Assembly (NCBI GenBank): GCA_030648295.1
Contig: JAUSID010000263.1
Location: 1 to 64,000 of the forward strand
DNA: 64,000 nt
Source of the DNA: Opitutaceae bacterium
GTDB taxonomy: Bacteria > Verrucomicrobiota > Verrucomicrobiia > Opitutales > Opitutaceae
Direction: 5' to 3'
The notes beneath the pieces were generated by a model. That model had not been told where the DNA came from. It made no database searches and saw only the letters and a list, made by a program, of their open reading frames with translations. Both the position numbers and the translations under genes were made by a program. Below are positions 19,990 to 53,191 of the stretch, piece by piece. The number at the start of each line of letters is the position of its first letter. Position 1 is the stretch's first letter.

Positions 19990-20017
19990 ACCACTGCCAA
20001 CGCAACCCTACCGCGAC

Positions 20018-25161: not shown

Positions 25162-25302
25162 CAGCCCGCATCGGTCCGTCATTCAATCAACGGAGCAGCG
25201 GAATTGCCGCGCGTATTTTGTCTGCGCTCGCGGACAATACGTGCGCAGCAATGGCCCTTTACCCGACCGGACCGGTGCGCACGATCGCGCGAACAGCTCG
25301 CG

Positions 25303-25956
25303 ATGAAATCCGGCCCTTCCCTCCGCGGCGCAGAACAGGCGGTGTCACTCGCCGCATCGGTGTCTCGTCGCGACTTTCTGCGCGGCCTCGGAACCACCGC
25401 GATCTCGACCGCGACGCTCGGCGCCGAAAGCGTGGCCGCGGAACTGCGGCAGGCGAACAGCGAAAAGCCGCAGGGCCCGGGCGGCGCCGCGATCACCCTG
25501 TCGATCAACGGCGAGCGGCGCGCGCTGATGCTCGAGCCGCGCGTCACCCTGCTCGAGGCGCTGCGTATCCACGCCGGCCTCACGGGTCCCAAGGAGGTGT
25601 GCGACCGCGCCACCTGCGGCGCATGCACGGTGCTGCTCGACGGCGTGCCGGTTTACGCCTGCATGATCCTCGCGATCGAGGCGCAGGGCCGCGAAATCAC
25701 CACGATCGAGGGCATCTCGAAACGCGGGCTCACCCCGGTCCAGCAGGCGGTGGTCGAGCACGACGGGCTGCAATGCGGCTACTGCACCCCGGGGTTCGTC
25801 ATGAGCCTGACCGCGTTGCTCAAACGCAACCCGCAGCCGACCGAGGCCGACGTGCGCAAAGCCTGCTCCGGCCACCTGTGCCGCTGCGGCTCGTACCCGC
25901 GGATATTCTCCGCGGCACTCGCGGCCAGCCGCGCGGCGGTCGCCGCGAAAATTTAA
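25303..25956 (+). CDS. Aldehyde oxidoreductase 2Fe-2S subunit, Tat-exported (PaoA/xanthine dehydrogenase small subunit type)
   Basis: Iron-sulphur subunit of a molybdenum hydroxylase. The 217 residues carry a Tat motif at 21-26 (SRRDFL), a plant-type 2Fe-2S site (C100, C105, C108, C120) and the second 2Fe-2S site of the family (C158, C161, C193, C195 in CGYCTPGF and HLCRCGSY). The Tat signal implies the folded enzyme is exported with its cofactors, as for E. coli PaoABC. The ATG at 25303 gives the Tat signal close to the N-terminus. The next gene starts 12 bases downstream. Confidence 0.92.
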   Translation: MKSGPSLRGAEQAVSLAASVSRRDFLRGLGTTAISTATLGAESVAAELRQANSEKPQGPGGAAITLSINGERRALMLEPRVTLLEALRIHAGLTGPKEVCDRATCGACTVLLDGVPVYACMILAIEAQGREITTIEGISKRGLTPVQQAVVEHDGLQCGYCTPGFVMSLTALLKRNPQPTEADVRKACSGHLCRCGSYPRIFSAALAASRAAVAAKI

Positions 25957-25968
25957 TCCCATTCCGCC

Positions 25969-28131
25969 ATGCCGTGGCCCAAAGAAACGCGTTACCTTGG
26001 CAAGTCGGCCCCGCGCGTTGACGCGCCGGCGAAGGTCACCGGCCGCGCGAAGTTCACCAGCGACATGGTCCCCGCCGGCCTGCTCTACGGCGCGATCCTC
26101 CGCTCGCGGTGGCCGGCGGCGCGAATCAAGTCAGTCGATTTGTCGAAGGCGAAATCAGCGCCCGGAATCAAGGCGGCGATTCTCGCGAAGGAAGGCGAGT
26201 TCGACATCAATTATTACGGCCAGGAAATCGCGGCCGTCGCGGGGGCGAGCCGGCAGGCGGTGCTCGACGCGCTGGCGCTCATCGTGGTGAACGCGACCCC
26301 GCGCCCCTTCGTGGTCAAGGAACTCGACGCGATCAAACCCGATGCGCCGTCGGTGAGCGCGGGCAAGCCGAACCTCGGGTTCGGGCAGGCGAAGAATTCC
26401 GGCGACGTCGATGCTGCCTTTGCCTCTGCCGCCGCGGTGATCGAGGGAAACTACAGCACGCCGATCGAATTCCACCACCCGCTCGAATCGCACGGTCACA
26501 CCGTGGCGTGGGAGGGCGACGAGATGACGGCGTGGTCGTCCACCCAGGCGGTGTTCGGGTGCCGCACCGCGTTTTCCGGGGCGCTCGGCGTGCCGCAAAA
26601 CAAGATTCGCGTGATTTGCGAACACATGGGCGGCGGGTTCGGCTCGAAATTCAATCCGGGAGCCGAGGGAATCCTCTGCGCTCGACTGGCCCAAGCCGCG
26701 GGTGCGCCCGTGAAACTGATGCTGACGCGGTTCGAGCAGGCGCTCGCGGTGGGCAACCGGCCATCCTCGTATCAGAAAATCAAGCTCGCGGCCGATGCCA
26801 GCGGCAAACTCACCGCCTTCCAGCTCGAATCGTTTGGCACCCCGGGCTTCAGCTCGGGCGTCAGCAACGCTGGTGGCAGCGGCGGCGCCAGTTTCCCCGC
26901 CCCTTATATCTACAAGCCCGAGGCAACGCGGATAAAGCAGGGCAGTGTCGCGGTGAATGCGGGCCAGTCGTGCGCGATGCGCGCGCCGGGACATCCCGTG
27001 GCTTCGGCCGGGATCGAGGCCGCGCTGGACGATCTGGCCGCCAAGCTCGGGATGGATCCGGTGGAAATCCGGCTGAAGAACGATCCGTCGGAAATCCGCC
27101 GGCGCGAATACGAGCTTGGCCGCGAGCGGTTCGACTGGAAACAGAAGTACCATAAACCCGGCGCCACGCCCGGCCCGATCAAGGTTGGGATCGGCTGCGC
27201 CGGTGCCGCGTGGATGAATGGCAACCGGCCCAGCCAGTGCGAACTTCAAGCGAACCCTGATGGCACGGTGGAGGTACGGATCGGCACCCAGGATCTCGGT
27301 ACCGGATCGCGCACCGTCGTGCAGGTCGTCGCCGCCGAAATGCTCGGACTTGAGCTCAGCGCGATCGACGTGCAGGTCGGCGACACCAGTTTCCCGTTCT
27401 CCGGGCCGAGCGGCGGCAGCACGACCACGGTGTCGATCACGCCGGCGGTGTATGACGCGTGCGAGAACGTCCTCGCCGAGTTGAAGAAGGCCAGCGGCAT
27501 CGACGATCCCCGGGGCGCGAAGTGGAAGGAGGCGTGCGGCAAATTGCGCAACATGCCGCTGCGCGTCATCGGCCGCTGGCGCGAGGGGCTTTCCACCGGC
27601 GGCGCATGCGGCGTCCAGTTCGCGGAGGTCGAGGTCGACACAGAGACCGGGTTCGTGAAGCTGCGGAAGATTCTCGTCGTGCAGGACTGCGGTCTCGTCG
27701 TGAACAAGCTGACGTGCGAGAGCCAGATCAATGGCGGCGTGATCATGGGGATCGGCTACGCGCTCTATGAATCACGCGTGATGGATCGCGCAAGTGGCGT
27801 GGTGCTGAACCCGAACTTCGAAACCTACAAGCTTCCCGGCGCGGCGGACATTCCGCCGATCGACATCCTGCTGCTCGACATGCCGGAGCGCGGTGTCATC
27901 GGCGTCGGCGAGCCGTGCACGATCCCGACCGCGTCCGCGATCGCCAACGCGGTGGCGAACGCGATCGGCGTCCGCGTCGGCAGCCTGCCGATCACGCCCG
28001 ACAAGGTGCTCGCCGCGCTCGGCAAGGTGCCGCCCGCGGTGCGCGATGCCACGGCCACGCTGGAGCTCTCGAACGCGTTCGCCACCGTGGCCGCGCTGCC
28101 CGCGGTCGCGCGCAACACCACGCTCTCATGA
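25969..28131 (+). CDS. Aldehyde oxidoreductase molybdopterin-binding subunit
   Basis: Catalytic subunit of the xanthine dehydrogenase family; 720 residues. Molybdopterin motifs include CEHMGGGFGSKFNPGAEG, CAMRAPGHP, GTQDLGTGSRTV and GVIGVGEPCTIP, the last containing the catalytic base E648. It starts KETRYLGKSAPRVDAPAKVTGRAKFTSD, the usual N-terminus. It oxidises aldehydes or N-heterocycles; the true substrate is open. No signal peptide of its own, so it would be co-exported with the small subunit. Stop and start of the next gene overlap (ATGA). Confidence 0.93.
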   Translation: MPWPKETRYLGKSAPRVDAPAKVTGRAKFTSDMVPAGLLYGAILRSRWPAARIKSVDLSKAKSAPGIKAAILAKEGEFDINYYGQEIAAVAGASRQAVLDALALIVVNATPRPFVVKELDAIKPDAPSVSAGKPNLGFGQAKNSGDVDAAFASAAAVIEGNYSTPIEFHHPLESHGHTVAWEGDEMTAWSSTQAVFGCRTAFSGALGVPQNKIRVICEHMGGGFGSKFNPGAEGILCARLAQAAGAPVKLMLTRFEQALAVGNRPSSYQKIKLAADASGKLTAFQLESFGTPGFSSGVSNAGGSGGASFPAPYIYKPEATRIKQGSVAVNAGQSCAMRAPGHPVASAGIEAALDDLAAKLGMDPVEIRLKNDPSEIRRREYELGRERFDWKQKYHKPGATPGPIKVGIGCAGAAWMNGNRPSQCELQANPDGTVEVRIGTQDLGTGSRTVVQVVAAEMLGLELSAIDVQVGDTSFPFSGPSGGSTTTVSITPAVYDACENVLAELKKASGIDDPRGAKWKEACGKLRNMPLRVIGRWREGLSTGGACGVQFAEVEVDTETGFVKLRKILVVQDCGLVVNKLTCESQINGGVIMGIGYALYESRVMDRASGVVLNPNFETYKLPGAADIPPIDILLLDMPERGVIGVGEPCTIPTASAIANAVANAIGVRVGSLPITPDKVLAALGKVPPAVRDATATLELSNAFATVAALPAVARNTTLS

Positions 28132-29093
28132 ACGCCTTCGCCTACGTTACGGCGCAAACGCCCGAATCCGCCGTGCAACTCGTACGGCAGGACGGCCGCT
28201 TCCTCGCGGGCGGCATGGATTTGCTCGGTGAGCTGAAGGAGTCGCTCGCCACCCCCAAAACCCTCGTGAACGTGAAGGCGTTGCCGGGCACCAACGACCT
28301 ACGCACGACCGGCACCATGTGGACGATCGGCGCAAACGTCACGCTCGCGATGCTGGCCGCGAATTCGGAAGTACGACGGGCGCTCCCCGGCCTGGCGACG
28401 GCCGCGCTCGAGGTGGGTTCGCCGCAGATTCGCAACGTCGGCACGGTGGGCGGCAATCTCGCGCAGCATTCCCGCTGCTGGTATTACCGGCACCGCGACA
28501 TCGAGTGCCGCAAGAAGGGTGGCACCGCGTGCTTCGCGCGCCAGGGCGAGAGCAAGTACCATTCGCTCTTTACCGGCAGCATGTGCATCAGCCCGTTGAT
28601 GTCGAACCTCGCCATCGCGTTCGCCGCGCTCGATGCCCGCGTTGTCGTGCAGCGCGGTCGAAAACCCGAGACGCTGACGCTCGCGGATCTTTACGCGTCG
28701 GCGTGGAAGACACCGGCGGCGCACAATTCGCTCCGGCCCGACGATCTGATCCTGCGCGTCGAGGTCCCGATCGCGTCGGATCGCCGCAGCGCGTATTTGC
28801 AGGTGGCGGAGAAGAGCGATTTCGACTGGGCGATCGTCAGCTGCGCGGCGGCCGCGAAGGTGAACGGCTCCACGCTGCGCGCGACGCGACTCGTGCTCGG
28901 CGCGATCGCGCCGATTCCGTGGCAGGCAGACGCAGCCAATGCTTTTCTCGAGGGGAAAAACGTGACGACCGAGACGGCCGAACGCGCCGCCGACCTGTTG
29001 CTGCGCGATGCACGCCCATTTGGTGACAACGCCTACAAGCTTCCGATCGCGAAGGCACTGGTCCGCCGGACGCTGATGCAGTTGGTGGTGTAG
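28128..29093 (+). CDS. Aldehyde oxidoreductase FAD-binding subunit with 4Fe-4S insert (PaoB type)
   Basis: Passes electrons from the iron-sulphur subunit through FAD. The 321 residues have the FAD motifs FLAGGMDLLGE and QIRNVGTVGGNLAQ. Directly after comes RCWYYRHRDIECRKKGG, then TACFARQGE and FTGSMC, four cysteines spaced like those that bind an extra 4Fe-4S cluster in E. coli PaoB. This supports a periplasmic PaoABC-like enzyme, although the gene order here is small-large-FAD rather than A-B-C. No dedicated PaoD or XdhC chaperone lies beside it. Confidence 0.92.
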   Translation: MNAFAYVTAQTPESAVQLVRQDGRFLAGGMDLLGELKESLATPKTLVNVKALPGTNDLRTTGTMWTIGANVTLAMLAANSEVRRALPGLATAALEVGSPQIRNVGTVGGNLAQHSRCWYYRHRDIECRKKGGTACFARQGESKYHSLFTGSMCISPLMSNLAIAFAALDARVVVQRGRKPETLTLADLYASAWKTPAAHNSLRPDDLILRVEVPIASDRRSAYLQVAEKSDFDWAIVSCAAAAKVNGSTLRATRLVLGAIAPIPWQADAANAFLEGKNVTTETAERAADLLLRDARPFGDNAYKLPIAKALVRRTLMQLVV

Positions 29094-31494: not shown

Positions 31495-33441
31495 TTGAAC
31501 CCCGTGCGACACCAGCGAAATCCCGACGCTAGCTCCGCCGCGCCCGATGTGCGCTTTCCGAACGTGCGCGGCCGTCAACCTTGGCGCGTAACCATTCGCC
31601 ACATTGCCACTGCAATCGCGATCGCAGCCGCCAGCGGGCAGGCCGCCGAAACGACCGCGCCGGCATCGCCGTTGGCGATCGTCGCATCCCGCGATGGGGG
31701 AAAGTTGTTCGTTGCCTGCGCCACGCGCGGCGAAGTCGCCGTCCTCGATTCCGCCGGGAACCTCACGCAAACGCTCAAGGTGCCGGGCTCGCCCTCGGGT
31801 CTCGCGGTCTCACCAGACGGCACGCGGATGGCCATCACCTGCGCCGCGCCCCAAAGCACCGTGTGCATCGTCGACCTCGCGCGCCTGGAAATCGTGGCGC
31901 GACTGCCCGCCGGGCACAGCACGTTCGCGCCGGTGTTCAGCTCGGACGGGCGGACGCTCTACGCCTGCAACCGCTTCAATCACGAGGTGGCCGTTTTCGA
32001 CCTGAATGCTCGAAAACAGGTCGCCCGGATCGCGGTGGAGCGGGAACCCATCGCCGCCGCGCTCACTCCTGACGGCCGGCTGCTCTTCGTCGCGAATCAC
32101 CTCCACAACGGTCCTGCCAGCGCGGAACAGGTGGCGGCTGGCGTGAGCGTGATCGACACCGGCACGCGGCGCGTGGTGAAAACCATCCGGCTGCCGAACG
32201 GCAGCGGGCTGCTGCTTGGCGTCGCCATCACTCCGGACGGACGTCACGCCGCCATCACGCACAACCTTTCGCGTTTCAACCTGCCCACGACGCAGGTCGA
32301 GCGCGGATGGATGAACACCGCGGCGCTGACGCTGATCGACGTGGCGAAGCTTGGCGTGATCAACACCGTGCTCCTCGACAACGTCGAATCCGGCGCCGCC
32401 AATCCATGGGCGGCGGCGTTCACGGCCGACGCGAAGCGGCTGCTCATCACGCACGCGGGGACGCACGAGCTGAGTGTCATCGATTACCCCGCGCTCGTCG
32501 CGAAATTGAGCCAGCTGCCTGACGCACTCGCGGCGGGGCAGACGCCTGATTACACCCGCGTTTCAAATGTCCGCGCCGATGTACCCAACGACCTCGCGTT
32601 CCTGGTCGGGCTGCGGCAGCGAATCAAACTGAACGGCAATGGACCGCGGTCGCTGGCGATTAGCGGCGAAACCGCGTGGGTTCCGGGCTACTTTTCCGAC
32701 TCGATCGACAAGGTGGATTTGTCGGCGCCGGGCTGCCGGCCGGAGTCGATTGCGGTCGGGCCGCGCGTGCCGATGTCGGCGATTCGCCGGGGCGAAATGG
32801 CGTTCAACGATGCGACCCTCTGCTTCCAGACCTGGCAGAGTTGCGCCACCTGCCATTCCTACGATGCACGCGTGGACGCCTTGAATTGGGATCTGCTGAA
32901 CGACGGCATCGGCAGCCCGAAGAATGCGAAAAGCCTGCTCTGGTCGCACCGGACGCCGCCGGCGATGAGCACGGGCGTCCGGGACAGGGCCGAGACGGCG
33001 GTGCGCTCCGGCATCCGCTACATTTTGTTCGCCGTGCTGCCGCCGGAAATACCCTCCGCGCTCGACGCGTACCTGGGGTCGTTGATGCCGGCGCCCAGCC
33101 CGTATCTGGAAAAAGGCGCGCTGTCGAAATCGGCGCTGCGCGGGAAACAACTCTTCGAGGACACGGCGGTCGGCTGCGCGAAATGCCACCCGCCGGGACT
33201 CTTCACCGACCTCCAGTCCTACGACGTGGGGACGCGGCAGCGAGCCGACGGCGCGGGCACCAATTTCGACACACCGACGCTGGTGGAACTCTGGCGGTCC
33301 GGGCCGTTCCTGCACGACGGTTCGGCCGCGACGATCCGCGACGTATTCCGCCCGCACAACCGGCAGGACAAACACGGGGCGACGTCCCAACTCACCGAAC
33401 AACAAATCGACGACCTCGCCACCTACGTGCTCTCGTTGTGA
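31495..33441 (+). CDS. Secreted YVTN-like beta-propeller with dihaem cytochrome c domain
   Basis: Encodes up to 648 residues. A seven-bladed-type propeller (about 60-430) has repeated blades such as VSPDGTRMAITC, FSSDGRTLYACN and LTPDGRLLFVAN. The C-terminal part binds two c-type haems, CATCH at 450-454 and CAKCH at 561-565, in a cytochrome c peroxidase-like arrangement (FEDTAVGCAKCHPPGLFTD, GPFLHDGSAATIRDVF). The N-terminus is uncertain: a TTG at 31495 is given, but GTG codons at 31549 or 31564 would place the signal peptide (IATAIAIAAASGQA) nearer the start. It lies 22 bases before the next haem protein gene; likely one operon and a periplasmic redox pair. Confidence 0.8.
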   Translation: MNPVRHQRNPDASSAAPDVRFPNVRGRQPWRVTIRHIATAIAIAAASGQAAETTAPASPLAIVASRDGGKLFVACATRGEVAVLDSAGNLTQTLKVPGSPSGLAVSPDGTRMAITCAAPQSTVCIVDLARLEIVARLPAGHSTFAPVFSSDGRTLYACNRFNHEVAVFDLNARKQVARIAVEREPIAAALTPDGRLLFVANHLHNGPASAEQVAAGVSVIDTGTRRVVKTIRLPNGSGLLLGVAITPDGRHAAITHNLSRFNLPTTQVERGWMNTAALTLIDVAKLGVINTVLLDNVESGAANPWAAAFTADAKRLLITHAGTHELSVIDYPALVAKLSQLPDALAAGQTPDYTRVSNVRADVPNDLAFLVGLRQRIKLNGNGPRSLAISGETAWVPGYFSDSIDKVDLSAPGCRPESIAVGPRVPMSAIRRGEMAFNDATLCFQTWQSCATCHSYDARVDALNWDLLNDGIGSPKNAKSLLWSHRTPPAMSTGVRDRAETAVRSGIRYILFAVLPPEIPSALDAYLGSLMPAPSPYLEKGALSKSALRGKQLFEDTAVGCAKCHPPGLFTDLQSYDVGTRQRADGAGTNFDTPTLVELWRSGPFLHDGSAATIRDVFRPHNRQDKHGATSQLTEQQIDDLATYVLSL

Positions 33442-33463
33442 GCGGGTCGTCAGGAGGAAAAGC

Positions 33464-35989
33464 ATGAAGCCACGATTCTGCAACGGTGCGGCCGCGCCGG
33501 GATGGGCGGCACTTCTCGCCCTGCTGCTGGCCACAACGGCGCAGGGTGCCGCGGTGGCCAAGCCGACGCTGCTCCAGCAATTCCGCGCGGGCCCGATGGC
33601 GGGAATCGACGACTACATCTTCGCCGCCCGGAGGTTGAATGACACCGATGGCCACTGGTACGCGAACATCGGATACTACGCGCACGATCCGAACCGCAAG
33701 GCATGGCGGGAAGGCAGCAAGCTCTATCGCTGGAACATGACGACGGGCCAGCTCCGGGTACTGCTCGACGATCCGCGAGGCGGAATTCGGGATCCGCAGG
33801 TCCACTACGACGGCCAGCGCATCCTGTTCAGCTACCGGCGCGGCGGCACCGAGCAGTACCATCTTTTCGAGATCAACGCCGACGGCAGCGGGCTGCGCCA
33901 GCTGACCGATGGTGACTACGACGATTTCGAACCGACCTACCTGCCCGACGGCGGGATCGCGTTCGTCTCCACCCGCTGCAAGCGGTGGGTCAATTGCTGG
34001 CTGACGCAGGTCGCCGTGTTGTACCGTTGCGATCAAAACGGCCGCAACCTCCGGCCGCTCTCGAGCAACAACGAGCAGGACAACACGCCGTGGCCGATGC
34101 TGGACGGCCGGCTGCTGTATACGCGTTGGGAGTACGTCGATCGCAGCCAGGTGGACTATCACCATCTCTGGGCCGCAAACCCGGATGGCACGGCCCAGAT
34201 CAACTGGTATGGCAACCTGCATCCGAAAATCGTGATGATCGACGCGAAGCCGATCCCGGGCACCGACAAGATCGTCGCGAGCTTCTCGCCCGGACACGGC
34301 CAACGCGAACACGCGGGCCAGATCACCATCGTCGATCCGAGCGCCGGTCCGGATAACAAGGCGTTCGCCCGTCCGGTGAGCAAGGGCAACAAATTCCGCG
34401 ACCCGTGGGCGTTTTCCGAGAACTGTTTCATGGTGGCGGCGGATGCGAGCGTCCTGGTGATGGACGCGACCGGCGCGCAACAGGAGATTTTCAAGCTGCC
34501 ACCGGAGGACGTGGCTGCCGGCATGCATCTGCACGAGCCGCGGCCGCTCATGGCCCGCGCGCGGGAACGCGTGATTCCCGATCGGATCAAGCCAACGCAG
34601 GCCACCGGCCGGCTCGTGCTCGCCGATGTTTACGACGGCCGGAACATGGCGGGCGTTCGGCGCGGCGAGATCAAGAAACTGCTCGTGCTCGAATCACTGC
34701 CGATGCCGATTCACTACACCGGCGGCATGGACCCCATCAGCTACGGCGGGACGTTCACGCTCGAGCGAATCGTCGGCACGGTGCCGGTGGAGCCCGATGG
34801 CTCGGCGCACATCGAACTGCCCGCGCTGCGCAGCTTCATCCTCGTGGCCCTCGACGAAAACGATCTCGCGGTGAAACGGATGCAGAGCTTTCTCACCGTG
34901 CAGCCGGGCGAAACGACGAGCTGCCTGGGCTGCCACGAGCAGCGCACCAAGAGCCCGCCCCTCGCCAATACCCGGCTGCTCGCCACGCGTCGCGCTGCCA
35001 GCCCGGTCGAACGGATCGAAGGCGTGCCGGAAATCATGGACTTTCCGCGCGACATCCAGCCGATCCTCGATCGATTGTGCGTGGACTGCCACGGCTATGA
35101 AAAAACTCCCGCGGGCGGGCCGCGGGCCGGGCAGTTGCTGCTGACGGCGGATCGGGGGCCCATGTTCAGCCACAGTTACTACATGATGACGATCGCCCGT
35201 CTGTTCTCCGACGGGCGCAACCAGCCGAAGAGCAACTACGCGCCGCGAACGCTTGGCTCATCCGCCAGCCGGATCCTGAAGCTCGTCGACGGGTCGCATT
35301 ACGGCGTCAAGGCGACTCCCGCCCAAACCCGGATCCTGCGGCTGTGGATCGAATCCGGCGCGGCGTATCCAGGAACCTATGCCGCGCTCGGCACCGGGAT
35401 GATCGGCGGCTATGCCGAAAACAAACAGGTCGAGACGGATGTGGATTGGCCCACGACGAAGGCGGCGGGCGAAGTCATGACGCAGCGCTGTACGGGATGT
35501 CACGACAAGGCCCCGCGGCTGCTTCCGCGCAGCCTGTCCGACGAGCGCGGGCTTTCGTTCTGGCGGCCGGATCCCGACGATCCCCGGCTCAACACGAGCC
35601 GGCACATCGTGTTCAACCTGTCGCGCCCGGAGAAATCGCTCCTGCTGCTCGCGCCCCTCGCCGCCTCGGCGGGCGGCTGGGAGTTGTGCCGGGAGTCCAA
35701 AGCCGGCGCGCCCGTCCAGGTGTTCACCAGCACGGACGATCCGGATTACCGGACGCTCCACGCGTTTCTCGCCGCCGGAAAAGAACGACTGGAAAAAATC
35801 AAGCGTTTCGACATGCCGGGATTCCGCCCCCGGCCCGACTGGGTCCGGGAAATGAAACGTTATGGCATCCTGCCCGTGGATGCGGATCCCGCAGCACCGC
35901 TCGATCCGTACGCGGTCGAGCGAAGTTATTGGGAGTCACTTTGGTATCAGCCCATGCCCGAGGTCCTGGCGAAGAGCGGGCAAGAGTAG
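33464..35989 (+). CDS. HzsA-related triheme cytochrome protein with TolB-like propeller
   Basis: Encodes 841 residues with a signal peptide (WAALLALLLATTAQGAA). The first half is a TolB-like propeller (GGIRDPQVHYDGQRILFSY, LPDGGIAFVSTRC). The middle and end resemble the alpha subunit of hydrazine synthase (GSAHIELPALRSFILVALDEN followed by the first haem). CxxCH motifs are CLGCH at 487, CVDCH at 539 and CTGCH at 676. HzsA proper belongs to anammox bacteria; relatives of this kind in Verrucomicrobia and Planctomycetes have no known reaction, and hydrazine chemistry is not claimed. Its stop codon overlaps a perfect hairpin. Confidence 0.82.
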   Translation: MKPRFCNGAAAPGWAALLALLLATTAQGAAVAKPTLLQQFRAGPMAGIDDYIFAARRLNDTDGHWYANIGYYAHDPNRKAWREGSKLYRWNMTTGQLRVLLDDPRGGIRDPQVHYDGQRILFSYRRGGTEQYHLFEINADGSGLRQLTDGDYDDFEPTYLPDGGIAFVSTRCKRWVNCWLTQVAVLYRCDQNGRNLRPLSSNNEQDNTPWPMLDGRLLYTRWEYVDRSQVDYHHLWAANPDGTAQINWYGNLHPKIVMIDAKPIPGTDKIVASFSPGHGQREHAGQITIVDPSAGPDNKAFARPVSKGNKFRDPWAFSENCFMVAADASVLVMDATGAQQEIFKLPPEDVAAGMHLHEPRPLMARARERVIPDRIKPTQATGRLVLADVYDGRNMAGVRRGEIKKLLVLESLPMPIHYTGGMDPISYGGTFTLERIVGTVPVEPDGSAHIELPALRSFILVALDENDLAVKRMQSFLTVQPGETTSCLGCHEQRTKSPPLANTRLLATRRAASPVERIEGVPEIMDFPRDIQPILDRLCVDCHGYEKTPAGGPRAGQLLLTADRGPMFSHSYYMMTIARLFSDGRNQPKSNYAPRTLGSSASRILKLVDGSHYGVKATPAQTRILRLWIESGAAYPGTYAALGTGMIGGYAENKQVETDVDWPTTKAAGEVMTQRCTGCHDKAPRLLPRSLSDERGLSFWRPDPDDPRLNTSRHIVFNLSRPEKSLLLLAPLAASAGGWELCRESKAGAPVQVFTSTDDPDYRTLHAFLAAGKERLEKIKRFDMPGFRPRPDWVREMKRYGILPVDADPAAPLDPYAVERSYWESLWYQPMPEVLAKSGQE

Positions 35990-36011
35990 GTTTTCGCTGC
36001 TGCGAAAACCT
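35988..36011. terminator. Perfect hairpin AGGTTTTCGC/GCGAAAACCT, dispersed element copy 1
   Basis: A 10-bp stem with loop TGCT starts inside the stop codon of the haem protein gene. An identical 24-base element ends 35 bases after the Gfo/Idh gene at 47137-47160, both followed by GGG. It may end transcripts, but no T-run follows, so it could equally be a REP-type element. Confidence 0.65.
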
Positions 36012-36050
36012 GGGATACAAGGCGAGTGGCTGGAGTACGCTGCGGCTCGT

Positions 36051-36160
36051 CGGGCGGGATGCGGGATGCGGGATTCGAAATCCCGGTATCCGGTATCCGG
36101 TTTCCGGTTTCCGGCATCCGGTTTCCGAAATCCGCAATCCGCGATCCGCGATCCGAAATT
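36051..36160. repeat. Paired-arm short tandem repeat array (GGGATGC / ATCCGGT units)
   Basis: GGGATGCGGGATGCGGGATT (from about 36056) meets ATCCCGGTATCCGGTATCCG directly; the centre GGGATT-CGA-AATCCC is a perfect hairpin. The right arm then drifts to TTTCCGGCATCC and CGATCCGCGATCC up to 36160. It lies between convergent genes and ends 2 bases before the stop of the minus-strand gene. Related CATCCCGTATCCCGTATC repeats occur at 62131-62165. Confidence 0.85.
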
Positions 36161-36161
36161 G

Positions 36162-39100
36162 CTACCGCCGTCCCGCCACCCGGGTCGGCCCTGCGGGCTC
36201 GACCTCGGCCACGACGCGAAAGCCGACATTGTACACCCGCTGCCATTCCGGGTAATCGAGCCGCACGCCCGAGCCGGCGCGCCTTGGCCGGTCGTACCAC
36301 GAGCCGCCACGCACCACCCTGCGGCTGGGCACCGTGACCTCGTTTCGTCCGTCGTTGTCGACGTAGGGATATTGGCGATACCCCGAACGCGTCCACTCCG
36401 CGGCATTGCCGTGCAGATCGTGCAGTCCCCAGGGATTCGGGAGGAAGCGTCCGACGGTGGTGGTCACCAGCGCCTGGTCGAACGAGCGGTTGTCACGCAA
36501 CACCCAGTCCGGATGGTCGCGGTACAGCATGCCGGGACGGCGTCGCGCCATCTCCTCCAGACTGCGATCCGCCAGGTTGCCAAAACCGTTGAAGATGACG
36601 TTCTCGCCCCCATACCAAAGCGGCGTCGCGGCGCCGGCCCGGCACGCATGCTCCCACTGCGCCTCGGACGGCAGCGAAAATACCATCCCGGTCTGCTTTG
36701 AAAGCCAGGCGCAGAACGCCATCGCGTCGCGCCACGACACGCGCACGACCGGCTGATCGTCCGCATTTACCGGATACCCGCGGGACTCGACGGCGGTGCC
36801 GAGCTGGCTGATGTAGCCACTGTCGTGCCGCGGATCGAACAGCCGGTACTCGCGATTACGCACCTCGAATCGTCCCATCCAGAACGGACGGGGAATCGAA
36901 ACGCGGTGCAACGGCCGCTCGTCGTTGGCGCCCTGGGCATTGCCCATGACAAATTCGCCCGCGGGCACGAGCACGAGCGTGAGGGCGACGCCCGCCGCCA
37001 GCTCGATGGTGCGTTCCGGCGGCAGGGCATGGAGCGCGGCCGCCGCAACCTGCCGCTCGCGCGCCTCGTGCGCGTCAAAGGGGAAGCCCGCGACCTTCAC
37101 CGGCGGCACGGTCGTGCCCGCCGTCTTCACGCCGGCACCGACCTGCGCCGCCGGCCGGTTGTAGCCCGCCAGTTGCGGAATCGCTTCGTAGTCCTCCTCG
37201 ATTCCGCCGTAGAGCTTGAGATATTCGAGCCGCCGCTCGCGGCCGCCGAACGGAATCGGGTACACTTCGTGCCAGGTTCCATGATACGGGACGTTGAGAT
37301 CGATCCAGGTGATCAACCGATCCCACGCCTCCGGATCGAGCTGCACGTCGTGGTGCCCCTTGCGCAGCATCTGCACCAGTCCGCTCGTGTCGGCGTGAAA
37401 CTCGCCCGGCGTGAGCAGCAACGCGTCGCTCTCGGTTCCGCCGCGCCGGACGTGCGGATGCAGTGCTTCGTAGGCCGGCGAAAACTTGATCCGCTGCTGA
37501 TGCCGCTCGGACAGCGGGCTGGTTTCAACCCCCACGTCGTCGATCGTGACATTCGACGCGAGCTGGCCGTTGGTGATCACCTGGGGAATCGGCGCGATCG
37601 TGCCCTCGTATTTCGGGAAGAATTTTCGCGCGCGCAGATCAACCAGGGTGCGGCCGTCGCGCTGCGGCTTGCCGTCATGGCAACGCACGCAATGCACTTC
37701 GAGCACCGGCTGGACCTCGCGCTCAAAGCTGAAGCCACGCGGCGGCCCGAACCACGGTTCAATTTCGGCCGGCGGCCGGCTGAGCGCGAGCGTTCGCTGA
37801 TTGGCGGAGGTTCGCGCATGGCCTTCGTGGCAGCCGGTGCACGACTTGACCTCGCCGCGCATGCCGGTGAACCAGCTCCGCATCAGCTGCACGGCCTTTC
37901 CCTCGGCATCGAGCGGCTGCACGCTGATCGGCGTGTTCGCCGGCACGCGGAAATACGCCGAGCCGTCCGGCTGCACCGGCACCGTGCCGAGGATGCGCTG
38001 CACGTCCCACGGTCCGTCGATTCCGATGTTCAACCAGCCCGCGTTGCCGAAGTACCCGTAGTGCGGCGAAATCACCCGCAGCCTGCTGATCGTCCCGCGT
38101 GGCACGTCCTTGAGCCCGGGGCCTTCGTAGACGTCCACCATGTAGACGAGCGCATCGTTGCGTTTCGGGTCGACGCGATCGGGGATCACCGGCGCAGGCG
38201 CCGTCTTTCGCCACGGCACGGGTTCGAGCAGCGCGTGCCCGGGGCTCTCGCAAAGCAGGAGCAGATTGTCGAACACGTCCGCAAGATAGATGCCCCACTC
38301 GGCGCGGCGGCCCGGCTTGCACGCGACGAGGAAATATTTTTCCGAGAGCGGCCAGGGGTGCATGAACTTCGGCCAGCTCTCGTTCACCAGCGTGTCCTTG
38401 ATCACCGGCAGCACCGGCCGCCCGCGCCCCGGGATCCGCTGCACCACGCCGGCGGTTTCCTGGCGGCCCTTCGCGGCGTCGAACAGCACGAGCTCGCCCA
38501 TCCGGCGATCGCCGTGATGACCGGACACGATGCCAATGAACTGGCTCGCGTGCCCGGGAATCGCCCGCGCCCCGTAGATGGCGTTCGGCCAGTATGAATT
38601 GCTGCCATACAGCTCCTCCTGGCCGGTCCCGTCGGGGTTCATCTGGAAAACAAGCCGCGTGAAAAAATGGGGCGTGCCGGCGTATTCCCAGCGCGTGAAC
38701 ATCACGCGGCCGTTGTTCATCACCGTCGGATACGAATTGTCGTCCTGATCGAAGGTGAGCTGGCGAACGGTACCTGTCTTCGGATCCATGAGGTAGATTC
38801 CGCCCACGCGACGCGTGCCATTGTAACACGGCACCGACTGGCCGTTCGCGGTCGAGCAGAAGAGGATGCTGCCATTCGGCAGATAGCACGGATCGAAATG
38901 ATCGACGTCGTCATGCGCACTGCGGGTGACCTGGCGCAGCCCCATGCCGTCGCCGTTGAGTTCAAAGACCTGCCAGCGGTTCGCGCCCGGCATGGTGAAG
39001 AGCAGTTTGTCGGCCTCGAAGTTCAGCTCGACGTCGGCGAGGTATTTTCCGCCCGGCGGCTTGAACAGCGTCGTCAGCCTGCCCGTCGGGGCCACCGGGG

Positions 39101-39686
39101 AGAGGATGCTGATTTCACAGTCGTAGCCGTGCTGCGGGATGCTCGAGTAGCACGCGTCGTTGCGCGGCAGCCGCAGCTTCTCGGCGTCGTGTTTCACCAG
39201 CAGCAACCGATCGAACTTCAGCAGCGGGTTGCCGAGCAGCGCCTCCTCACGCAACGCGCGAAGCTCGGACGCGAGCGCGATGACCTGCCGCGCCAACGCC
39301 GGATCCGTGGCATCGAACGCCGTCATGAGCGGCCGCGCGCGGGCTTCAAGCGCATCGAGCCGGCGCGCGTGGACAGGGCCGTTGATGTATTCAGGCGGAA
39401 ATGACGTGGAGAGATCCGCGACCGCCAGCCGCAGCGATTGAAAATTGAATCCGCGAAGAGTTCGGACGGCTTCATCCAGCGCCGAGCGCGGCTCCGTCGC
39501 GCTGGCCGCCCGCATGCCGGCCGGGCGGGCCGGCGACGCCGCCGGCACCGCGGTGGCGAATGCCAGCGCCATCCCGATGACCACCATGCGGCGCGCGAAA
39601 GCCTGGCCGGCGGCAGGCAGGAGATGCGACCGAGGCGCGGTCGAGGATCGGCGGGCGCGGAAAATGGGTGGCACGGTGCAGGCCAC
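36162..39686 (-). CDS. HzsA-related dihaem protein fused to an SUMF1-like (FGE-fold) domain
   Basis: Encodes up to 1174 residues. A signal peptide (MVVIGMALAFATAVPAASPA) begins at residue 34, so the true start may be the ATG at 39587. A TolB-like propeller follows (LPNGSILFCSTANGQ, QDDNSYPTVMNNGRVMFTRWEY), then an HzsA-like region with CTGCH at 616-620 and CVRCH at 666-670. The last 270 residues are an SUMF1/formylglycine-generating-enzyme fold (LVLVPAGEFVMGNAQG, LPSEAQWEHACRAG, GLHDLHGNAAEWT, RRVVRGGSW). The pair of active-site cysteines expected after RGGS is missing, so it is probably a binding domain rather than a sulfatase-activating enzyme. It is convergent with the gene ending at 35989. 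Confidence 0.82.
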   Translation of the reverse strand: MACTVPPIFRARRSSTAPRSHLLPAAGQAFARRMVVIGMALAFATAVPAASPARPAGMRAASATEPRSALDEAVRTLRGFNFQSLRLAVADLSTSFPPEYINGPVHARRLDALEARARPLMTAFDATDPALARQVIALASELRALREEALLGNPLLKFDRLLLVKHDAEKLRLPRNDACYSSIPQHGYDCEISILSPVAPTGRLTTLFKPPGGKYLADVELNFEADKLLFTMPGANRWQVFELNGDGMGLRQVTRSAHDDVDHFDPCYLPNGSILFCSTANGQSVPCYNGTRRVGGIYLMDPKTGTVRQLTFDQDDNSYPTVMNNGRVMFTRWEYAGTPHFFTRLVFQMNPDGTGQEELYGSNSYWPNAIYGARAIPGHASQFIGIVSGHHGDRRMGELVLFDAAKGRQETAGVVQRIPGRGRPVLPVIKDTLVNESWPKFMHPWPLSEKYFLVACKPGRRAEWGIYLADVFDNLLLLCESPGHALLEPVPWRKTAPAPVIPDRVDPKRNDALVYMVDVYEGPGLKDVPRGTISRLRVISPHYGYFGNAGWLNIGIDGPWDVQRILGTVPVQPDGSAYFRVPANTPISVQPLDAEGKAVQLMRSWFTGMRGEVKSCTGCHEGHARTSANQRTLALSRPPAEIEPWFGPPRGFSFEREVQPVLEVHCVRCHDGKPQRDGRTLVDLRARKFFPKYEGTIAPIPQVITNGQLASNVTIDDVGVETSPLSERHQQRIKFSPAYEALHPHVRRGGTESDALLLTPGEFHADTSGLVQMLRKGHHDVQLDPEAWDRLITWIDLNVPYHGTWHEVYPIPFGGRERRLEYLKLYGGIEEDYEAIPQLAGYNRPAAQVGAGVKTAGTTVPPVKVAGFPFDAHEARERQVAAAALHALPPERTIELAAGVALTLVLVPAGEFVMGNAQGANDERPLHRVSIPRPFWMGRFEVRNREYRLFDPRHDSGYISQLGTAVESRGYPVNADDQPVVRVSWRDAMAFCAWLSKQTGMVFSLPSEAQWEHACRAGAATPLWYGGENVIFNGFGNLADRSLEEMARRRPGMLYRDHPDWVLRDNRSFDQALVTTTVGRFLPNPWGLHDLHGNAAEWTRSGYRQYPYVDNDGRNEVTVPSRRVVRGGSWYDRPRRAGSGVRLDYPEWQRVYNVGFRVVAEVEPAGPTRVAGRR

Positions 39687-40097: not shown

Positions 40098-43031
40098 ATG
40101 AAACGAACCCAACCGTTTTTCCTGTACTGCGTCGGTCTCGTCCTGGTTGCATCCACTTCCATGATACTCGCGGCCGAGTCCACGGCCGCTGCCGCGACCA
40201 ACGGCACCATCGCAGGCCGCGTGCGCAATGTCGCGACCGGCGCCTATCTCGAAGGCGCATCGGTGCTCCTCGAACCGGGACATCAAGCGACCCTCACCGC
40301 ACGCGATGGCAACTTCGATTTTTCCCCGCTGCCGCCGGGCGAATACCGGGTTTCGATTTCGTACACCGGACTCGATCCGCAAACCGTGTCGTTGACCGTG
40401 GGTCCGGGTCAGTCCGTGACGCGTGAATTCGAACTCACCTCGCAGGTCTACGCCATGGAGGCGTTCACCGTCGCGGGCGAACGCGAGGGCAATGCCCTTG
40501 CGATCACGCAGCAGCGCAACGCGCCCAACGTCAAGAACGTCATCTCCGCCGATGCCTTCGGCAACATCGCCGACCAGAACCTGGGCAACCTGCTGATGCG
40601 GCTGCCGGGCGTCGCGGAGGAAATCCTCGAGGGCGAGGTCGCCTCGGTCGCGGTGCGCGGCATTTCGGCCGACATGAATGCGGTGACGGTCGACGGCACC
40701 CGCGGCGCCAGCGGCAACACCGGCGCCCTCAGCCGCGGTTTCGCCATCGACCGCATACCGGCTGACTTCGTCGAGCGGATCGAGGTGACGAAGGCGCTCA
40801 CCCCGGACATGGACGGCGATTCCATTGGCGGCGCGGTCAATCTCCGGACGAAATCACCGCTCGATCGCAAGGGCCGGTTCATTTCCTACATGGGCGGCAC
40901 GTCGTGGAACCTGGACCGCGACACCTTCGAGCCCATCGGCTCGTTCTTCTACTCGGACACGTTCGGGCCCGAGCAAAAGGTGGGGGCCCTTTTCACGTCG
41001 AGCTACAACAAGACGCACAAGCCGCGCGACTCGGTCTACCAGAACTGGCAGCAGACCGCGGTCACGGACGTGCCGGCGTATTTCTTCATGAGCAACCTCG
41101 GCGAGGACCGGCTCCAGCACGAGCGGATCGGGATCGGCGCGCGGGTGGATTACAAGCTCAGTTCGACCCATCGCGTGTTCCTGAACACGATGTATTCGGA
41201 TTACAAAGACCGGCTCGATCGCCGGCACATCACGATGACGCCGACGGCCGCGCAGATCCGGCCGGGCTGGACATCAACGGTCACGGAGACGACGAACCAT
41301 CCGATCAACTTCACGCAACTCCACCGCGCCCGTGGCGCGGACACGATCAACGTCGTGTTCGGCGGCGAGAAGCGACTGCCCCGCGCATTCCTCGATTACG
41401 GCACGAATTTTTCCACCTCCAGCGGCGATGAACAGCGAATCCTGCCGACCGTGCAGGTGGCGGGCGTCGGCTTCCGGTTTGACCGCGCCAATCCGCTCTA
41501 CCCGAAGATGACGCAAATCAGCGGGCCGGACATCAACGATCGCACGGAACACCGGATCACGCAGGTGAATTTCCAGGACTATCACGACAAGGACGTCATC
41601 CGTGGTGCGCACGTGAATTGGAAGCAGCGGCTGCCCACCACTCTGACCGTGAGTCTCAAGACGGGACTGAGGTGGCGGGGCCAGCAGCGAGATCGCCTCC
41701 AGGAACGGCCCGCGTACGCGTACGTGGGTCCCGATGGCGTGAATGGGCGCAACCCGGCCACTGGAATCAACGACGACAACGTCGCGCAATTCGCCGACAC
41801 GAATTATCGCTATGGCGCCGCGCGCGGACGTTACGTTCCCGTACCCGCGCTGGATCCCGGGTTGCTGGTCCAGCACCTGCGCACGCACCCGCAGGAATTC
41901 GTCGAGAACGTCGCGACCACCGCGCGCGATGCGCTCCAGTTCAACGGCCGGGTCACGGAGAATGTTTACGCCGCCTATTTGATGGGCGACGTGCGGCTGG
42001 GACGGCTCGACGTCACGACGGGTGTGCGCGTCGAGGAAACGCGGCTCACCGGCCGCGGCGTCCGCCAGGAAATCACGCCGGCCGAGCGAGCGCGCCGCGC
42101 GGCCTGGGTCGGGCCGGTCACTTCGGACGAACTCCGGCGGCGGACGATTGCGGAATGGAGCAACATCCGCGAGGACGACGGGCAGTATCGCAGCGTGCTT
42201 CCGAGCGTGCACTTGAAGTACAACATGTCGCCGAACCTGCTCGCGCGCGCGAGTTACTCCACCGGGATCGGCCGGCCGAATTTTTCCAACCTGCTTCGGA
42301 CCACGACGGTCAATCACGACACCATGCGCGTGGTGGCAGCCAACCCCGATTTGCGGCCGCAGACCGCGGAAAATTTCGATCTGGCGCTCGAGTATTATTT
42401 CGAACCGTCGGGCTATTTTTCCGCCGGGGTGTTCCTGAAGGAGATCAAGGATTTCATCTATGGTGACACGGGTGCGGTCATTGACGCGGGGCCCGACAAC
42501 GGGTTTGAGGGCGACTACGAGGGTTACAACCTGGTCCGTAACTTGAACGGCGGCTCCGGTCGCGTGCGTGGTTACGAGCTCGCGTACAACCAGCGGTTCA
42601 CGCGACTACCGGGCCCGTGGAAGGGGTTGGGCGTGATGGCCAACTACACGAAGTTGACGAGTCGCGGCAACTACACCTCATCCGGCGGCGTGATGACGGG
42701 GGCGCAGCTGGCCGGGTTCATGCCCGAGACCTTCAACGCCGGGATTTCGTACACGCTGCGGGCCTGGGATCTCCAGCTGAAATACACGCACCGCTCCGAG
42801 AACCTGCGCGATTACAACGCGAACCCGCTGCTGCGGGTTTATTACTACTCGAAGAAGAACGTGGATTTTAACCTCAAGTACAAGTGGCACCCGCGGCTCA
42901 CGGTGTTCGTGGATGTGATCAACATCTTCGACGATCCCATCGCCAACGCCTTCATCTACGTGAACAGCCGCACGCGGTATAACCAGGTGTTCACGCCGGC
43001 GATCAAGGCGGGGATCTCGGGGCGGTTCTAG
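40098..43031 (+). CDS. TonB-dependent receptor with carboxypeptidase-like N-terminal domain
   Basis: Outer-membrane receptor of 977 residues. Signal peptide (FFLYCVGLVLVASTSMILAA); carboxypeptidase-regulatory-like domain (GTIAGRVRNVATGAYLEGASV, about 35-110); plug (NVISADAFGNIADQNLGNLLMRLPGV, VRGISADMNAVTVDG); long barrel ending AIKAGISGRF. The layout matches SusC-like and other glycan or polyphenol receptors of this phylum. It is a paralogue of the receptor at 50186. The next gene is a xylose-isomerase-like protein, hinting at sugar uptake. Confidence 0.92.
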   Translation: MKRTQPFFLYCVGLVLVASTSMILAAESTAAAATNGTIAGRVRNVATGAYLEGASVLLEPGHQATLTARDGNFDFSPLPPGEYRVSISYTGLDPQTVSLTVGPGQSVTREFELTSQVYAMEAFTVAGEREGNALAITQQRNAPNVKNVISADAFGNIADQNLGNLLMRLPGVAEEILEGEVASVAVRGISADMNAVTVDGTRGASGNTGALSRGFAIDRIPADFVERIEVTKALTPDMDGDSIGGAVNLRTKSPLDRKGRFISYMGGTSWNLDRDTFEPIGSFFYSDTFGPEQKVGALFTSSYNKTHKPRDSVYQNWQQTAVTDVPAYFFMSNLGEDRLQHERIGIGARVDYKLSSTHRVFLNTMYSDYKDRLDRRHITMTPTAAQIRPGWTSTVTETTNHPINFTQLHRARGADTINVVFGGEKRLPRAFLDYGTNFSTSSGDEQRILPTVQVAGVGFRFDRANPLYPKMTQISGPDINDRTEHRITQVNFQDYHDKDVIRGAHVNWKQRLPTTLTVSLKTGLRWRGQQRDRLQERPAYAYVGPDGVNGRNPATGINDDNVAQFADTNYRYGAARGRYVPVPALDPGLLVQHLRTHPQEFVENVATTARDALQFNGRVTENVYAAYLMGDVRLGRLDVTTGVRVEETRLTGRGVRQEITPAERARRAAWVGPVTSDELRRRTIAEWSNIREDDGQYRSVLPSVHLKYNMSPNLLARASYSTGIGRPNFSNLLRTTTVNHDTMRVVAANPDLRPQTAENFDLALEYYFEPSGYFSAGVFLKEIKDFIYGDTGAVIDAGPDNGFEGDYEGYNLVRNLNGGSGRVRGYELAYNQRFTRLPGPWKGLGVMANYTKLTSRGNYTSSGGVMTGAQLAGFMPETFNAGISYTLRAWDLQLKYTHRSENLRDYNANPLLRVYYYSKKNVDFNLKYKWHPRLTVFVDVINIFDDPIANAFIYVNSRTRYNQVFTPAIKAGISGRF

Positions 43032-49604: not shown

Positions 49605-50185
49605 AAGGCATGCAGAATGAGCCCGCGATCCCGTATCCGACTGGTGGCGACGCAACCCGGGACAACGCCGGGTGCGCAGGGGAAAGGTAACCGTCCCGCC
49701 CGGCATCAAGCCGTCGGGGACTCTGCGGGGCGGTGAACGACATGCGAGCGAGAGATGCCCTCCCTTCAAGCGACCGCAGCTGACATTTCTGTCAGGACCC
49801 GTCGCTCACCGTCGCAAATCCAAAGCCGGCGGAATGGACGCCGCAATCCTCGCCACCGCCTTCGGGCAAGGCGGGAAAGAAGAAAAAAGGTTGAGGCCCG
49901 GCGGGGCATAGGCGTCCCGCCCATGTTGGATCGATCATCGTACGCTTAACCGGTCCCGCCATCACAGGCAGGATGCCCGTGCCACTTCGGAGGCATCCGC
50001 GCGCTTGCCACCAGCGCGAGTGCTTCACACCTTGGGTCACCCCTCACCCCATTGCCGCCGGCTTCCGCCGGTGAGCAACGTCGTAACGCCCGCGTCACCC
50101 CTCACCGCCGCATTGTACGAACCATTGTTCGCCCGTGGCTCCGTGCCCCCGAAACCAACTCTTCGTCCGAAACCCCTCGAAGACC
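49605..50185. other. Intergenic region upstream of TonB-dependent receptor
   Basis: No gene in 581 bases. A copy of the GGTCCCGCCATCAC repeat is at 49951-49990, with an accompanying GGCATAGGCGTCCCGCC at 49905-49921. The 50040-50185 part should contain the receptor promoter; none is clear. Confidence 0.5.
49905..49990. repeat. Dispersed repeat, GGTCCCGCCATCAC family, copy 1
   Basis: GGTCCCGCCATCACAGGCAG followed by GATGCCCGTGCCAC (49952-49985) matches 53404-53437 with one change. The neighbouring GGCATAGGCGTCCCGC recurs near 53457 in the same relative family but different order. Confidence 0.75.
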
Positions 50186-53100: not shown

Positions 53101-53191
53101 GCAGCGCCTTTACTCCGGGACTCCCAATCGAGCGCAGGATGTCATGATCACCTTCGTCACCGTGACGGCTGGCATCAGCGGCCGATTCTAA
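50186..53191 (+). CDS. TonB-dependent receptor with carboxypeptidase-like N-terminal domain (paralogue)
   Basis: Outer-membrane receptor of 1001 residues. Signal peptide (LIARWIALALAAFPFARAAD), carboxypeptidase-like domain (GVITGSVSNSATRNLLEGARVEVP), plug (VATDSFGNLPNMSAGEVVMRLPGV, FSIRGMDKSLNTITVDGG) and barrel ending VTAGISGRF, the same terminus as the receptor at 40098. The shared EREGDALAITAQRNADNVKN-type hinge shows the two are close paralogues. It probably imports an oligosaccharide for the periplasmic enzymes encoded downstream. Confidence 0.92.
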   Translation: MNTNKRLALIARWIALALAAFPFARAADTIPAASVSPTGVITGSVSNSATRNLLEGARVEVPALGLSALSDNTGRFVLTGVPAGVHDVVVSYIGLDPTRAQLAIAAGQRTVRDFELTTGIYRLDAFKVTGEREGDALAITAQRNADNVKNIVATDSFGNLPNMSAGEVVMRLPGVAGSPSEEGHFSGFSIRGMDKSLNTITVDGGLLASIGTNRSFEMQSITGTMFEQLELIKGHTPDKGANSLGGTINMKTRSPLNMREKRRLTYSATVRMAPPFFEQVPVREEHRAHPLITLGYQEVFSVFGGERNLGIAANLFYHENSVGAYRITHQYQNTLNTPAFVWSSDVKENYNNRKQRSLNVKTDYRYSFNSKFTLNTTINDNIERFRRSYNTRAYTGNQNTVPNATTSGVIPGFTEKVTQVRAVPASMIDILTNGPNSYVVETYLIDFGAEHEFGPLQLDYNAGFSRNHQASGHHREGGQLALTHRLANVGWIFDRTNSDTYPRLIQTAGPDWSDPNNYRPITNGLVKTSSEQPQNVTQVRGNARYTLPIAVRAHLKAGFSWREQSVKARNASRRWSYIGTSALPVFAASPVPFTFEKAGINLPRWQVSDFMTGGSAGREPVDASLWQEDRFYHEENKFTGNRNATEEVTAGYIMAQGKLGRDGLLGRTGYLTGVRTERTETEGRGWVRARFASTTAQRVADPVGSAQRDYANTFRETKGDYTKSFPSVHLTHDFTSNLKARVSWSTSFGRPAMSNFLPNESVSETNQTVTINNPSIQPQTASNWDATLDYYFEPVGALSVGWFHKTINDYIVSGTIAGIVEGGTDNGYNGEFEGFTRLMSSNAGTATVQGWEFSYQQQFTFLPGLFKGFSGNANYTMIDTHGDFGGRVARKTGEVAGFIPKAANVSLSWRYRGFSTRVLYNFVGEHITSYSAVNPGQNLYRFERETVHLGLAYQLRPTVNLNLDIANLFNEPQRLYSGTPNRAQDVMITFVTVTAGISGRF

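Follow-up and report, generated by a model that had tools for sequence, protein, structure and literature searches.

Homologues of all hydrazine synthase subunits, one fused to an SUMF1-like domain, in an Opitutaceae bacterium

Introduction

Hydrazine synthase (HZS) is the key enzyme and hallmark of anaerobic ammonium oxidation (anammox), and has been hypothesised to have arisen de novo, homologues being lacking, as passages of PMC12758564 recount. In the enzyme of Kuenenia stuttgartiensis (PDB 5c2v) the alpha subunit combines a propeller, a middle domain and the haem motifs alpha-I and alpha-II, the beta subunit is a propeller and the gamma subunit is a di-haem protein; the haem ligands are described in sections of PMC12607021, and in Scalindua the beta and gamma subunits are fused, according to part of PMC12758564. 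The same source, as far as its accessible sections go, reports pairs of alpha and beta-gamma homologues outside anammox bacteria in clades I–IV, with HZS residues not conserved (clades I–III being described; Hagglund et al, 2025), and a broader family with other substrates is proposed in part of PMC10732223. Here, we show using profile searches, structure models and alignments that three genes in a 64,000-nucleotide stretch from an Opitutaceae bacterium (assembly GCA_030648295.1, contig JAUSID010000263.1, positions 1 to 64,000 of the forward strand; hereafter the window) encode a homologue of the HZS beta-gamma fusion (protein A) and two homologues of HZS alpha (proteins B and C), the second of which ends in a domain of the FGE/SUMF1 family.

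The plan of the K. stuttgartiensis enzyme is common to the locus, and A is fused as in Scalindua. The locus differs in the absence of alpha Tyr591, alpha Cys303, gamma His144 and gamma Cys165, and in adding a propeller signature of its own, a third haem motif in B and an SUMF1-like domain in C; its genome has no match to a putative HAO-type protein. The co-located alpha and fused beta-gamma homologues in the available parts of Hagglund et al (PMC12758564) likewise lack alpha Tyr591. Opitutus terrae, placed there in clade I, has a six-haem beta-gamma protein (likened here by haem count), and six-haem proteins fall away from A in our tree. With CCP, MauG and MbnH, A has in common two CxxCH motifs in a CCP_MauG-type region, to which it adds a fused beta propeller. 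The C-terminal domain of C has the fold of the FGE/SUMF1 family, whose catalytic cysteine pair is complete in none of the alpha-SUMF1 fusion proteins.

Results

Three genes encode homologues of the HZS subunits

The open reading frames lie at 31495–33441 (plus strand; A, 648 residues), 33464–35989 (plus strand; B, 841 residues) and 36162–39686 (minus strand; C, 1174 residues), and their GC content at third codon positions is high, as it is in coding sequence. A and B follow each other on one strand with 22 bp between them, and C is convergent to the pair. CxxCH haem motifs occur twice in A, three times in B and twice in C. An original prediction, made from the letters alone, had proposed two adjacent plus-strand genes and one convergent gene with 2, 3 and 2 such sites, and the reading frames and motif positions bear it out. 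It had also likened two of the proteins to HZS alpha. These are B and C, which score above the cut-off (26.6) of the Pfam family HZS_alpha (PF18582), with 4.4e-20 (72.5 bits) and 1.5e-27 (96.5 bits), respectively, and which match the NCBIfam HZS alpha model far under its cut-off (1e-18 and 3.8e-9).

The partner of B and C had been overlooked. A does not resemble HzsA; it matches NF052342, the NCBIfam model of the HZS beta-gamma fusion, at 1.4e-49. With 168.9 bits against a curated cut-off of 1250, A falls far short of membership in that family and counts as a homologue. By phmmer against PDB 5c2v, A matches the gamma subunit (chain C) at 4e-28 over 428–647 and the beta subunit (chain B) at 6.4e-27 over 116–335, and its di-haem domain (about 428–648) is recognised as CCP_MauG above the Pfam cut-off (5.4e-9). 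A profile of 33 alphas matches 5c2v_A at 2.8e-39. Because A is the beta-gamma partner of two alpha homologues, the locus holds a whole HZS-like subunit set. Judged from the E-values and the conservation described below, chance is excluded as the source of the A, B and C matches.

The structure models agree with this assignment. The model of B (mean predicted local distance difference test score, pLDDT, 82.3; predicted template modelling score, pTM, 0.85) was built on an alignment of 33 alphas, namely 22 of 25 with three CxxCH, 10 of 37 others and one more from the window's genome. Among PDB entries it matches HZS alpha best (5c2v_D; Z 34.5, 558 residues, 3.0 Å); TolB ranks below, at Z about 25–26, and is confined to residues 21–365. 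The model of C, built on 29 of the 30 alpha-SUMF1 proteins (loci L038 and L063 being equal), has pLDDT 76.3 and pTM 0.76 and superposes on 5c2v_D over 543 residues (Z 31.8, 3.1 Å). HZS alpha architecture outside anammox bacteria, which the original prediction had claimed, is therefore found in both models, and A with B and C very probably has an HZS-like fold and set of subunits. Readings of these proteins as L-NosZ or TolB-type were rejected, the matches being weak or limited to the propeller.

Haem motifs are retained and HZS-specific residues replaced

Our HZS reference consists of seven loci from Planctomycetota genomes, which we call anammox-type because their genomes' genes match the HZS beta-gamma model up to 4.8e-201 and the numbering reproduces the published alpha H587, alpha Y591 and gamma C102. 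The alpha alignment holds 76 homologues, comprising all 30 alpha-SUMF1 proteins (C-type; L038 and L063 both counted), all 25 three-CxxCH alphas and 21 of 37 others (longer than 820 residues, exactly two CxxCH). Both alpha motifs are present in 76/76 homologues, partly by selection, the B-type and other rows having been picked for three or two CxxCH; among 93 alpha-cluster reading frames, six have one CxxCH and four have none. The gamma-I motif is present in 91/91 and the gamma-II motif in 84/84 beta-gamma rows. Within the window, gamma-I reads CATCH (C450–H454 of A, 32842–32856, plus strand), aligned to HZS gamma Cys102–His106, and gamma-II reads CAKCH (C561–H565, 33175–33189, plus). The motif scan and alignment place alpha-I at CLGCH in B (C487–H491, 34922–34936, plus) and CTGCH in C (C616–H620, 37827–37841, minus), and alpha-II at CVDCH in B (C539–H543, 35078–35092, plus) and CVRCH in C (C666–H670, 37677–37691, minus). 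The extra C-terminal stretch of B bears a third motif, CTGCH (C676–H680, 35489–35503, plus), which has no counterpart in anammox-type alphas with their two CxxCH. These conserved haem sites imply a redox role, as had been proposed.

For the haem geometry of HZS, the comparison covered positions in the alignment. The haem motifs keep their places, and the position of the distal haem alpha-II ligand has a His one residue away, whereas the HZS-specific residues around alpha-I and gamma-I are not conserved. A His one residue before the HZS distal position, alpha His772, occurs in 73/76 homologues (H778 in C and H612 in B, our proposed distal ligands) and a His at 772 itself in 29/76, so that by alignment the alpha-II haem of the homologues is likely bis-His; parts of PMC12758564 report this distal His missing in clade I. 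Alpha Tyr591, present in 7/7 anammox-type sequences, occurs in 0/76 homologues, all of which lack Tyr in the 8 residues that follow the alpha-I motif. Cys303 of the alpha zinc site is found in 6/7 anammox-type sequences and 0/76 homologues, and some anammox bacteria lack it too, as stated in a section of PMC12758564. Gamma Cys165, the third thioether residue, is retained in 0/91 homologues, all 91 having Gly there. The gamma His144 position, where part of PMC12758564 places a Trp important in CCP/MauG, corresponds to residue 492 of A, a Ser; it holds Ser, Trp, Ile, Val or Ala in 88/91 homologues and His in 0/84 beta-gamma rows.

The alpha homologues have conserved residues of their own. Arg332 and Tyr335 (C numbering) are present in 76/76, Trp333 in 72/76, Cys287 in 69/76 and His391 in 66/76, and all five are absent from the seven HZS sequences. 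Further pairs mark the subfamilies, H340/R344 in 30/30 C-type and Q229/H233 in 20/20 B-type proteins. This pattern would fit a specific chemistry different from that of HZS, in two role variants. Since the residues behind the chemistry of HZS have been replaced, the enzyme is almost certainly not a hydrazine synthase.

Alpha and beta-gamma homologues co-occur

In an even draw of 288 Verrucomicrobiota genomes from 151 genera, alpha (PF18582, E ≤ 0.001) is present in 61 and beta-gamma (E ≤ 1e-60) in 61, and 57 genomes have the two together (Fisher 3e-50). Counted by genus, the numbers are 28, 28 and 25 of 151 (4e-22). These p-values, like those below, are indicative only, the genomes being related. 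A contig scan with A and six relatives yielded 204 relatives, of which the best 80 define the beta-gamma loci discussed here (some being the same genes as in separately obtained loci of relatives: L034/L049, L035/L050, L036/L051, L037/L052 and L038/L063), with labels from Verrucomicrobia, Planctomycetota, Hydrogenedentes, Lentisphaerae, Kiritimatiellae, Acidobacteria and others. An alpha gene lies at 55 of the 80 loci, an alpha-SUMF1 fusion at 28 and a B-type alpha at 21; among loci of at least 20 kb, 24/31 have an alpha. The expected co-occurrence of the three genes in other genomes holds for alpha with beta-gamma, whereas both alpha types together are rare.

The window's genome has eight PF18582 matches, at least three alpha-SUMF1 fusions (C among them) and two further beta-gamma genes beside alpha-SUMF1 genes (C290, C64). 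At L038, equal to L063, beta-gamma, alpha-SUMF1 and B-type alpha genes run head to tail on one strand. Window-type A-B pairs occur in four relatives, with A identities of 61–65% (three aligned) and 60% (the fourth) and B identities of 74–76%, and a C-type gene is absent from their stretches of 5.7 to 19 kb. The beta-gamma homologues of L080, L104, L096 and L111, with no alpha on the examined stretch and a related gene upstream (at L111 a sugar-isomerase-type AP_endonuc_2), possibly have a separate role.

The genome that we take to be Akkermansia muciniphila ATCC BAA-835 (G163) carries, in this order (locus L131), an alpha-SUMF1 gene (two CxxCH), a beta-gamma gene (three CxxCH) and an FkbO/Rid-like gene (58 bits, weak). 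Its beta-gamma protein is 44% identical to A over residues 83–569. In its genus, the 13 genomes listed with beta-gamma are the 13 listed with alpha, genomes without a match being mostly unlisted.

In a tree of 52 of 105 beta-gamma rows, one branch (support 85/92) parts A and its relatives from HZS, the six-haem proteins and five rows of L158–L160. HZS and the six-haem proteins join at 97/92 on long branches, and the join is possibly false. The window's own family includes such six-CxxCH beta-gamma homologues (L134:9615–12173 in G029 and L137:8314–10776 in G191), which group with HZS, not A, on these long branches.

The SUMF1-like domain of C lacks the FGE cysteine pair

Residues 904–1159 of C (36210–36977, minus strand) match PF03781 (FGE-sulfatase) at 9e-44. 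At the cysteine site C reads GGSWYDRPRRAGSG, whereas L163 (G000:C293), an FGE-family protein encoded in the same genome, has the canonical pair and reads GGSYLCHASYCNRY. Residues 1132 and 1137 of C, which we take to correspond to the FGE catalytic cysteines, are D or E in 29/29 alpha-SUMF1 proteins and Cys in 9/29 (Ala in C), respectively, and the pair is complete in 0/29. The original prediction was right that the domain lacks the expected cysteines. The folds nearest to the modelled domain are Treponema denticola variable protein 1 (2y3c; Z 26.2, 228 residues) and PvdO (5hha; Z 26.1, 230 residues), followed by PorK (Z 23.5) and FGEs (Z 21–22). Since the nearest folds are a variable protein and PvdO, either binding or oxidation may be its role.

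Neighbouring genes and surroundings

Recurrent neighbours at the 80 loci are genes for FkbO/Rid-like proteins (20 loci), Gfo/Idh/MocA (12), DhaK (8), DhaL (8), cupins (8) and LsrF-type aldolases (7); further examples that we tested are an aldo/keto reductase (one protein), redoxin-type proteins (three) and a sugar-isomerase-type protein (one). At L085 the order on one strand is DhaK, DhaL, LsrF, cupin, alpha-SUMF1, alpha, beta-gamma, FkbO/Rid, and its LsrF scores above its curated cut-off. The L103 cupin resembles D-lyxose isomerases (match at 1e-19), and a putative twin-arginine-like start is seen in the cupins of L085 and L098. Dak1 is rare in the phylum sample (34/288 genomes) and enriched in carriers: 20 of the 34 also have beta-gamma (p 3e-7), and at genus level the figure is 10 of 20 (p 5e-4).

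In the window, the sugar genes nearest to the locus are xylose-isomerase-like genes at 43328 and 44617 and a Gfo/Idh/MocA gene at 45476. TonB-dependent receptors with carboxypeptidase-like N-terminal domains lie at 40098–43031 and 50135–53191, and the block of genes that they enclose encodes xylose-isomerase-like proteins, Gfo/Idh/MocA and GntP permease. Upstream of the locus, 25204–29093 holds a three-gene molybdopterin set of the xanthine/aldehyde-dehydrogenase type, adjoined by a malic enzyme gene on the opposite strand. NuoF-like and iron-only hydrogenase genes (Complex1_51K; Fe_hyd_lg_C, Fe_hyd_SSU) at 17737–21763 suggest a fermentative or anaerobic host.

Between the convergent genes of B and C, 36054–36159 holds short tandem repeats with 7-bp and 14-bp units (GCGGGAT, CCGGTAT and CCGGTATCCGGTTT). 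Promoter- and terminator-like sites occur no more often than by chance. The N-terminal stretch of A suggests a signal sequence. The listed start of C is GTG; its true start may be the in-frame Met codon 34, which directly precedes a signal-like stretch.

Discussion

With moderate confidence, we propose that A, B and C are the complete subunit set of a periplasmic haem-protein complex on the HZS plan, with A as beta-gamma and B and C as two alphas, that acts as a multi-haem oxidoreductase other than HZS. We infer the complex itself, its periplasmic site, the position of the propeller residues beside the haem, the electron flow and the substrate; that A forms one complex with B, C or both is probable. 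In the mechanism that we envisage, a small substrate would bind at the alpha propeller face beside haem alpha-I, where Arg332, Tyr335, mostly Trp333, Cys287 and His391 would be the family's own residues. The SUMF1-like domain of C, as the original prediction had suggested, may help to bind or position the substrate. The di-haem gamma part would perform a second half-reaction, or relay electrons for it, and would exchange electrons with a soluble cytochrome c.

What might the substrate be? Opinion could go either way on a small organic compound. A carbohydrate-derived compound is the leading guess, weak and tentative, because in several lineages the genes sit with DhaKL, an LsrF-type aldolase and a D-lyxose-isomerase-like cupin, and we treat it as a lead only. 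Rather doubtful, too, is the wider claim that this widespread class (in Verrucomicrobiota, Planctomycetota and other phyla, including A. muciniphila) uses the HZS scaffold for periplasmic oxidation of carbohydrate-derived compounds, alpha having gained a PvdO-like domain, and that HZS is a specialised offshoot of a larger organic-substrate family.

Several observations weigh against these proposals. The window's genome has no Dak1 match and 72 of the 80 loci show no DhaK, which makes the sugar link a pattern of the minority; Gfo/Idh/MocA and sugar-isomerase genes are common in such genomes and weigh little. The carriers are related lineages rather than independent trials. In the phylum sample, four genomes have beta-gamma without alpha and four alpha without beta-gamma, and the beta-gamma count takes in the more distant six-haem type (G029, G191). 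No alpha lies on the examined stretch at 25 of the 80 beta-gamma loci, including 7 of the 31 of at least 20 kb. Finally, C is convergent to A and B, and both alpha types occur at only 5 of the 80 loci, so that B and C do not have to belong to the same complex.

These last points also speak for an alternative that is possible, if not our preferred one, in which A and B make up an enzyme of two subunits, and C, as a separate paralogue, is their neighbour by chance. It gains from the 22-bp spacing of A and B on one strand and from the four relatives with A-B pairs and no C-type gene on their examined stretches. Against it stand the single-strand run of A, C and B types at L038 (equal to L063), the two further beta-gamma genes beside alpha-SUMF1 genes in the window's genome and the presence of the fusion at 28 of the 80 loci. 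FGE modifies proteins, and the close co-occurrence of A-type and alpha proteins could likewise be explained if the di-haem part of A were a MauG/MbnH-type enzyme that matures alpha by oxidising residues of it, for example in the propeller or the SUMF1-like domain. A does match MbnH (3.1e-10) and MauG (1e-9), both far under their cut-offs. The CCP/MauG Trp, however, is Ser in A and occurs in only 17 of 91 rows, being absent from 74 including A, and the two haem motifs that the alpha partners themselves retain point to a partner in catalysis; we consider such a maturation role unlikely.

A peroxidase or an enzyme handling NO or N2O in detoxification would account for the CCP_MauG domain of A and for a weak match to lactonase-type NosZ (60.8 bits, cut-off 700), but scores stay below the NCBIfam cut-off for every NosZ and CCP model. 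Nitrogen-oxide or peroxide genes were not recognised among neighbour families at five or more loci, a weak argument in that several families were identified from one representative, and we regard this function as quite improbable. That the locus encodes a true hydrazine synthase of an unrecognised anammox-like host is hardly conceivable, even with homologues of alpha, beta and gamma all present and in the order, beta-gamma then alpha, that part of PMC12758564 gives for anammox. The four HZS residues are lost throughout (alpha Tyr591 and Cys303, gamma Cys165 and His144), the HZS models are matched far under their cut-offs, and an anammox-type eight-CxxCH protein (putative HAO-type; E ≤ 0.001), which replaced the uninformative PF13447 (no match in any genome), finds no match in the window's genome and four other carriers but 13 in one anammox-type control genome and 16 in another. 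Hydrazine synthesis was rejected on the lost residues and the missing HAO-type matches.

How does the periplasmic oxidoreductase that we favour relate to the homologues already described? Going by description only, from sections of PMC12758564, the locus would fit clade IV, with beta-gamma first; no FG-GAP or CRTAC1 was recognised among the annotated neighbours, none having been searched for specifically. The terms SUMF1, formylglycine and Akkermansia are absent from the main text of that study, supplements aside, and our literature search returned no paper joining HZS with formylglycine-generating enzyme or Akkermansia, nor Akkermansia with cytochrome c peroxidase and formylglycine. New here are the SUMF1-fused alpha, the tri-haem alpha, the family-specific propeller signature and the Akkermansia representative.

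In conclusion, the homologous subunits form a full set, co-occur strongly and have a conserved active site that differs from that of HZS. This indicates that the scaffold of the hallmark anammox enzyme is broader than its one known reaction, which bears on the origin of anammox. The Akkermansia relative is a cultivated gut bacterium, in which the function of these proteins is directly testable.

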